Part shown: one piece after another, positions 5,924-7,330 of the stretch
Position numbering within the stretch: the stretch's first letter is position 1
How the letters are laid out: each line of letters begins with the position of its first letter
Assembly: GCA_015232025.1 (NCBI GenBank)
Contig: JADGAL010000003.1
Location: 1-37,576 of the forward strand
DNA: 37,576 bases
Source: Alphaproteobacteria bacterium
GTDB taxonomy: Bacteria > Pseudomonadota > Alphaproteobacteria > Rhodospirillales > Magnetospirillaceae
Direction of reading: 5' to 3'
Translations under genes and position numbers: made by a program
Notes under the pieces: generated by a model
What the model saw: the letters and a program-made list of their open reading frames with translations, nothing else
Database searches by the model: none
What the model was told of the DNA's origin: nothing

Positions 5924-6337
5924 ATGCCAGATATGGCCGGGCAAAACGAATATGACCGCCGCATCGGCGATCTTTACCGCGAATCCGAACGCGACCTCGA
6001 TTCGGGGGTTCCGCCGCAAGAGGTGGCGCGGCGCCTGCAAGCCGACGAATTCGACCTCGCGGTGGAATGCCGGCTGGCCAGCTATATCGGCGCCGAGGCG
6101 CGCCTGTCGTTGCGCCGCATCCGCGACCAGGGCATGCGCGACTTGGCGGACCTGACCGCCGACTTGGCCGCCGGCCGCATCGCCGGGGCCGCCTTCGCCA
6201 AGCGCCTGCGCGTCCTGCACGAGGCGATGGTGGCCCGCGCCGCCGAGATCATCCCGCGCGAAGCGGCCGAAACCCTGTTCGGCGGCGCCGAGCGGCTTCC
6301 CGACGACGCGGGGCGCGACGGGTCGGCCGAGATGTGA
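5924..6337 (+). CDS. Hypothetical protein
   Basis: 137-aa ORF after mgtE, coding-like composition; stop directly abuts the convergent gene's stop (tgatca). Confidence 0.6.
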   Translation: MPDMAGQNEYDRRIGDLYRESERDLDSGVPPQEVARRLQADEFDLAVECRLASYIGAEARLSLRRIRDQGMRDLADLTADLAAGRIAGAAFAKRLRVLHEAMVARAAEIIPREAAETLFGGAERLPDDAGRDGSAEM

Positions 6338-6601
6338 TCAGCGGAAAACGTCGTCGAGCGATTCGGCGTCGAGCACGCGCAGACTCCAGTCTTCAAGGAG
6401 CGCGGTGTCGGCCGACGACAGTCGTTGCCGCGCCCAATCGGGCAGGACGCCGAAGCGGCGTTCGAGAATGCGGCGGAGGATGATCGACTCGCCCTGCCGG
6501 CGGCCTTCCTGACGGCCTTCTTGCAAGCCTTCCTGACGGCCTTCTTGCAAGCCTTCCTCTTTCCATTGCCGCTGCCATTCCTGAGCGCGCGTCGCCAGCA
6601 T
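6338..6601 (-). CDS. Candidate intragenic C-terminal product of the rpn-like gene (RpnS-like), 87 aa
   Basis: In-frame internal ATG (6601-6599) preceded by TTGGAGGTGAGAACC: GGAGG core 8 nt upstream of ATG. Confidence 0.5.
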   Translation of the reverse strand: MLATRAQEWQRQWKEEGLQEGRQEGLQEGRQEGRRQGESIILRRILERRFGVLPDWARQRLSSADTALLEDWSLRVLDAESLDDVFR

Positions 6602-7330
6602 GGTTCTCACCTCCAACAGGTTCTCGGACACCCGAATGGCGGGGTCCGCACCGTCCCCCATTCGCATCACCCGGCTGGTCAGCATGGCGAACAGCGGGCG
6701 AAGGGGCTCGAAATCCCCGTTGCGCTGGAACCACTCGATCACCGCGTCGACCAAGGGTACGATCTGGCTCGGCTCGCGACAATGCTCCAACCGGAACAGC
6801 AGGGCGGCGAGCGATTCCCGCGCCGCCAAGTCCTCGGTGGTCCAGGCGCCTTCGTCGATCAAATGGTAGCGCATGTCGGGCTGCCAGCGCCAGAAGGGCG
6901 ATTCGGGGGGCAAGTCGATCAACTCGCGCAGGCTCGGGGGCATGACCCAGCGTGGATCGCCGTTATAAAGGACCATCGGCAGAACCGGCGGCAGCCGCTG
7001 GCCGGGCCGCACCAGGTTCTCGTTGATCAGATGCTGATAGAGCAGTCCGACATAGACCATGACGCGAAGCGCCATCCAGCGCTCGGGCGTCGACTGGAAT
7101 TCGAGCAGCAGCAGCAGGTAAAGGTTCGATCCGTCCTTCACCGGAATCCGCCACACCATGTCGCCGTCACGGCGCTCGCCGGTGTCCGCGTGGAGCTTGG
7201 CGTTGACCCGCCGCATCGCCGAAAGGTCGAGATCCTCGACCCAGGGCTCGTCGACGAAATCGCGCAGCAACTGGGCGATCATGCCGGGATGGGAAAACAG
7301 GCGGTGATAGAGGGAGTCGTGGTCGGCCAT
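6338..7330 (-). CDS. Rpn-family recombination-promoting nuclease / putative transposase
   Basis: MADHDSLYHRLFSHPGMIAQLLRDFV...GDMVWRIPV...LYLLLLLEFQSTPERWMALRVMVYVGLLYQHL; Gln/Glu/Gly-rich repeat C-terminus. Confidence 0.9.
   Translation of the reverse strand: MADHDSLYHRLFSHPGMIAQLLRDFVDEPWVEDLDLSAMRRVNAKLHADTGERRDGDMVWRIPVKDGSNLYLLLLLEFQSTPERWMALRVMVYVGLLYQHLINENLVRPGQRLPPVLPMVLYNGDPRWVMPPSLRELIDLPPESPFWRWQPDMRYHLIDEGAWTTEDLAARESLAALLFRLEHCREPSQIVPLVDAVIEWFQRNGDFEPLRPLFAMLTSRVMRMGDGADPAIRVSENLLEVRTMLATRAQEWQRQWKEEGLQEGRQEGLQEGRQEGRRQGESIILRRILERRFGVLPDWARQRLSSADTALLEDWSLRVLDAESLDDVFR
6503..6558. repeat. 24-bp tandem repeat, about 2.3 copies, in-frame in the rpn-like gene
   Basis: gccttcctgacggccttcttgcaa twice exactly, then gccttcct; encodes EGLQEGRQ-type repeats. 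Confidence 0.95.

Follow-up and report, generated by a model that had tools for sequence, protein, structure and literature searches.

A conserved internal start inside an alphaproteobacterial rpn gene and its probable nested antitoxin

Introduction

Can one open reading frame in an alphaproteobacterial genome encode both a nuclease and the small protein that restrains it? The window, a stretch of 37,576 nucleotides of contig JADGAL010000003.1, holds on its minus strand an rpn-like gene in which a Shine-Dalgarno (SD) sequence precedes an in-frame internal ATG. The internal starts of E. coli rpnA-E have been seen by initiation (ribosome) profiling and by tagging, and in that species RpnS suppresses both the toxicity of RpnL and SOS induction and, in the RpnA case, cleavage in vitro as well (PMC10327210). 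Zhong et al. 2023 described nested antitoxins in E. coli together with one expressed C. difficile gene, and suggested that they are broadly conserved (PMC10327210). We asked whether the window gene has an intact nuclease, whether its internal start is real, and what the internal product would do.

Results

An Rpn nuclease gene with intact catalytic residues

The 330-amino-acid (aa) protein matches Transposase_31 (PF04754) over residues 3-204 at 81.1 bits, against a Pfam gathering score of 21, and DUF4351 (PF14261) over residues 274-328. An in-frame TAG stop lies immediately upstream of the rpnL start, and the gene is the only PF04754 copy in the genome (assembly about 81% complete). RpnA requires D11, D63, E82 and Q84, with R94 needed for recombination, and its D63A mutant is inactive (PMC5350276); in our alignment these residues correspond to D5, D57, E77, Q79 and R89 of the window protein, the first four invariant among homologues and R89 conserved in more than 90%. 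Judged from sequence, the window protein is an Rpn nuclease (COG5464 / PF04754) that retains the RpnA catalytic residues. Searching PDB with the full-length AF2 model by Foldseek returned nothing significant, and the weak top matches include endonucleases of the PD-(D/E)XK type that act in restriction and repair (EndoMS, MspJI).

Table 1 Features of the rpnL/rpnS locus, in window coordinates
Feature	Position	Strand	Evidence
rpnL, full-length Rpn nuclease (330 aa), proposed toxin	6338..7330	-	ORF; PF04754 81.1 bits, PF14261 30 bits
Transposase_31 / PD-(D/E)XK nuclease domain	6719..7324	-	PF04754 match; AF2 model pLDDT 88
Codon of D57 = RpnA D63 (catalytic)	7160..7162	-	Alignment; invariant in homologue alignment
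Codons E77-F78-Q79 = RpnA E82 / Q84	7094..7102	-	Alignment with RpnA; E77, Q79 invariant
rpnL start codon, weak SD (-4.0)	7328..7330	-	Predicted SD pairing
Internal Shine-Dalgarno GGAGG	6610..6614	-	Sequence; homologue comparison; SD energies
Internal start codon ATG, residue 244 of RpnL	6599..6601	-	ATG 103/105 and GTG 1/105 homologues
rpnS, 87-aa internally initiated protein, proposed antitoxin	6338..6601	-	Standalone homologues begin at same Met; AF2 helical model pLDDT 90.8
12/24-bp tandem repeats, 4-aa units (GLQE/GRQE), first RpnS helix; number differs between congeners	6501..6558	-	TRF
DUF4351 (PF14261) domain	6347..6511	-	Pfam

The neighbours of rpnL encode malic enzyme/Pta, MgtE, a trypsin-like protein and a GGDEF-EAL protein; they serve housekeeping or signalling, and the region is no defence island. 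PADLOC gave no model match, and the viral contigs that we searched gave one weak partial match. Between mgtE and rpn lies a 137-aa ORF (5924-6337, plus strand) that has no Pfam match and was found in just two of 41 genomes searched, that of the window and that of its congener.

A strong ribosome-binding site within rpnL

Read on the minus strand, the internal site is CTGTTGGAGGTGAGAACCATG, with GGAGG at 6614-6610, a spacer of 8 nt and ATG at 6601-6599, in frame with 7330-6338, exactly as the original prediction had placed it. The predicted 87-aa C-terminal protein ending in DDVFR agrees with the ORF and its translation, and the gene's own start at 7330, which had been called weak, has a predicted SD energy of -4.0. 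Pairing of the internal site with the anti-SD is predicted at -10.6 kcal/mol, a value that 11 of the window's 989 ATGs reach (~1%, both strands counted); among 30 in-frame start codons scored in rpnL, none besides the internal ATG pairs more strongly than -6.0. Local mRNA structure gives supportive but modest evidence for initiation: the 60-mer at the internal start is less structured than 79% of the gene's 60-mers, and across the genes compared it is, on average, less structured than about 73% of the 60-mers of the same gene. Taken alone, a single internal ATG with a strong SD is weak evidence, because an L-E-V-x-x-M motif can give GGAGG by accident. Comparison across homologues removes that objection.

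Synonymous sites at the internal start are under selection

We looked for homologues in samples drawn from relatives and from the order, the class and the phylum, and reduced 105 close homologues to a non-redundant set of 57 genes below 70% identity. Conservation of the SD and ATG, which the original prediction had left to be checked, proved strong. Residue 244 is encoded by ATG in 103 of the 105 homologues, by GTG in one and by TTA in one; in this last gene (L088) the codon just before is an ATG, preceded by the same GGAGG. Within the non-redundant set, M244 is kept in 56 of 57 genes, compared with 29 for the annotated first Met.

The codon of E240, four upstream of the start and central in the SD, is GAG in 54 of 54 non-redundant genes (expected 0.50, z 7.6); since the 57 genes share ancestry, this and the following z-score overstate independence and are not probabilities, and the fair comparison is with other conserved columns of the same alignment, where the remaining E columns use GAG at 0.21-0.75 and the invariant control E77 in 56% of genes. 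The excess at E240 is the largest among 285 alignment columns, and in low-GC genes, whose own GAG use is 0.36, E240 is still GAG in 5 of 5. One codon upstream, codon 239 (codon -5) has G at its third base in 55 of 57 genes while its residue varies, with Gln, Leu, Glu, Met, Arg and Trp accounting for nearly all; with Met and Trp left out, 48 of 50 end in G against 28.7 expected (z 5.9, with the same overstatement).

The whole site gives the same picture. Mean SD energy is -10.1, as against a mean of -6.2 under synonymous resampling, and 400 whole-set synonymous simulations span -5.0 to -7.2, none reaching the observed value; 510 other in-frame ATGs average -2.6. The GGAG-to-start spacing is 8 nt in 91 of the 95 genes that have GGAG, and the internal site is predicted to be stronger than the native start in 52 of 56. 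Distant homologues with other residues at these positions mostly keep a strong SD with ATG, or with TTG where Met is lost; a few (L050, L065) are weak in SD. On these comparisons the internal start is almost certainly real and under selection rather than a chance occurrence, and they point strongly to translation from 6601.

Two further features of the site were also seen: the base before the internal ATG (codon 6602-6604, minus strand) is mostly C across homologues (ACC, GCC, AAC, ATC), and T243 also shows a codon excess, at 0.63 against 0.35.

A predicted repeat-bearing helical protein with a DUF4351-type domain

In the AF2 model of RpnS, a long helix (residues 2-50) is followed by three short helices; in the model of full-length RpnL the corresponding long helix spans 238-293, and the internal SD lies at its beginning, a domain boundary. 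The repeats begin at about residue 17 of RpnS, and a gene of the same genus at the same locus beside mgtE, which has two more repeats, encodes 95 aa from the internal Met vs 87 in the window. DUF4351 is matched by 50 of 53 aligned homologous C-terminal products.

Searches of PDB sequences with the RpnS protein or its profile found nothing significant. Foldseek matched the RpnS model to no PDB entry, including RpnAS (7TH0, whose sequence is in the PDB set searched), a comparison in which models dominated by one long helix perform poorly, and hhalign of the RpnS and RpnAS profiles gave 84% probability over 26 columns, in the repeat helix only. Because the fold search gave no match to RpnAS and the profile match is limited to the repeat helix, the DUF4351-type inhibitory domain may act somewhat differently from RpnAS.

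Separate rpnS genes in relatives

In seven relatives the C-terminal part is also present as a gene of its own, rpnS, which follows rpnL in the same orientation after 2-79 nt and has the equivalent Met as its first residue; the window rpnL has no such neighbour. The standalone gene of L128 has GGGAGGG before its ATG although the residues there are G-G, not E-V. Those of L043 and L057 have a weak SD, and so not all separate genes keep a strong one. The arrangement recurs in E. coli, in which ypaA follows rpnE (PMC10327210).

A further candidate for a free rpnS gene, on G132:C99 (L154), runs off the contig end and was left out of the count. Contig C312 of the window's own genome carries L002, which we rejected as an intact second system: it is a deletion remnant with a frame change near its start, in which (G000:C312, 372-670) an N-terminal rpn stub is joined to an rpnS-like C-terminal part and the nuclease domain is deleted. 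In the rpnS-like part the ATG is retained and the SD is weaker (-6.4), and in this fragmented, MAG-like assembly its genome membership is uncertain. Rpn-like nucleases of another type (L069, a 275-aa ORF on the minus strand, and L040, a 319-aa ORF) likewise have DUF4351-like ends but seem to lack the internal Met conserved in the present set.

Discussion

What would explain a selected start within a nuclease gene? Conservation of the protein motif L-x-E-V-x-x-M might by itself leave an SD behind, given that E-V residues alone can yield GAGG and that synonymous resampling still averages -6.2. We consider such a by-product wildly improbable: third bases are constrained where residues vary, codon use at E240 and residue 239 differs from the rest of the gene against which it was checked, and the L128 standalone gene keeps its GGGAGGG with G-G in place of E-V. 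A translational pause between the nuclease and C-terminal domains, with no initiation, would suit a site at a domain boundary, at the head of helix 238-293. A pause, however, needs no start codon at a fixed 8 nt, and here ATG is near-universal and replaced by GTG or TTG where Met is lost; standalone genes, moreover, begin at the same Met. This account is very unlikely.

A stronger competitor, though still an improbable one, accepts that the small protein is made and takes it to be a partner subunit of RpnL, for assembly or DNA binding, as Cas11d is for Cas10d. It would leave the same genetic signature, it has the Cas10d/Cas11d precedent (PMC10327210), and the DUF4351-type C-terminal domain is unmatched to the solved inhibitor RpnAS. 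Yet those E. coli RpnS proteins whose inhibitory action was tested did inhibit (PMC10327210), and both the separate downstream genes and an internal start stronger than the native one suit an antitoxin kept in excess.

The locus is thus probably an RpnL/RpnS gene-within-gene toxin-antitoxin, with the small protein as antitoxin of the nuclease that it overlaps. Comparative sequence analysis establishes the internal start and the selection on its synonymous sites, the intact catalytic residues, the variable repeats and the separate rpnS genes of relatives. The antitoxin reading is the best explanation because position and architecture are homologous to those of cases already tested; we infer inhibition of the nuclease by RpnS from family membership, and expression, binding and a role in defence would follow, with inhibition, from E. 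coli RpnA/B/C/P2 (PMC10327210).

Under the toxin-antitoxin reading, initiation at the weak site at 7330 would yield RpnL, a DNA endonuclease of the PD-(D/E)XK type that ends in a helical domain, and initiation at the strong internal site (GGAGG, ATG 6601) would yield RpnS, which consists of the C-terminal domain only (87 aa) and would probably be made in excess. The long repeat-bearing helix of RpnS would pair with its counterpart in RpnL and so keep the nuclease inactive. How many 4-aa repeats are present may set the specificity of each RpnL/RpnS pair, and the nuclease would be freed if RpnS were released, as might happen when phages attack.

The present analysis measures selection on synonymous sites of an internal ribosome-binding site across one phylum, for a subfamily, the DUF4351 type, that differs from the one known in E. 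coli. Its pattern, GAG fixed four codons before the start, G at the third base of the preceding codon and ATG 8 nt on, offers a signature for finding intragenic antitoxins from sequence where expression data are lacking. Pfam gives no function for DUF4351 (PF14261), which here gains a testable role as a nested nuclease inhibitor. More tentatively, the internal start might be older and more conserved than the antitoxin domain behind it, with the three-helix module of E. coli RpnS and the DUF4351-type module exchanged behind the same nested ribosome-binding site; if true, the nested site would be a modular antitoxin socket within Rpn nucleases.

Comparison with known systems

Cas10d/Cas11d of type I-D CRISPR-Cas resembles the window locus in making a small protein from an internal start in a larger gene; there, however, the small protein serves as a functional subunit, whereas RpnS is proposed to inhibit, and we claim no sequence relation. 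The window protein and most of its homologous C-terminal products also resemble DUF4351 proteins in matching that family, and some separate RpnS genes noted by Zhong et al. are annotated DUF4351 (PMC10327210).

The closest counterparts are the RpnL/RpnS pairs of RpnA-E (Zhong et al. 2023, PDB 7TH0), with certain differences. The window C-terminal domain is DUF4351-type and 87 aa long, whereas RpnAS has 49 aa; the small protein has no fold match to 7TH0 detectable by Foldseek; and the SD is GGAGGT rather than the AAGGAGA of E. coli rpn. Transcription also starts within the rpn genes of E. coli (PMC10327210), whereas a consensus scan found no sigma-70-like promoter or terminator on the minus strand inside the window gene. 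The likenesses are a PF04754 nuclease with the same catalytic residues, variable 4-aa repeats soon (8-20 residues) after the internal Met, and separate downstream rpnS genes in some genomes. Above all, the internal SD and ATG stand at the equivalent residue, M244 in both RpnA and the window protein and aligned with all five E. coli internal starts, and this position bears out the likeness to E. coli RpnS that was first drawn from the sequence (alignment; PMC10327210). The kind of system is already known (Zhong et al. 2023); here, it comes with an antitoxin domain that is of the DUF4351 type, and not demonstrably of the RpnAS fold, behind the same nested start.
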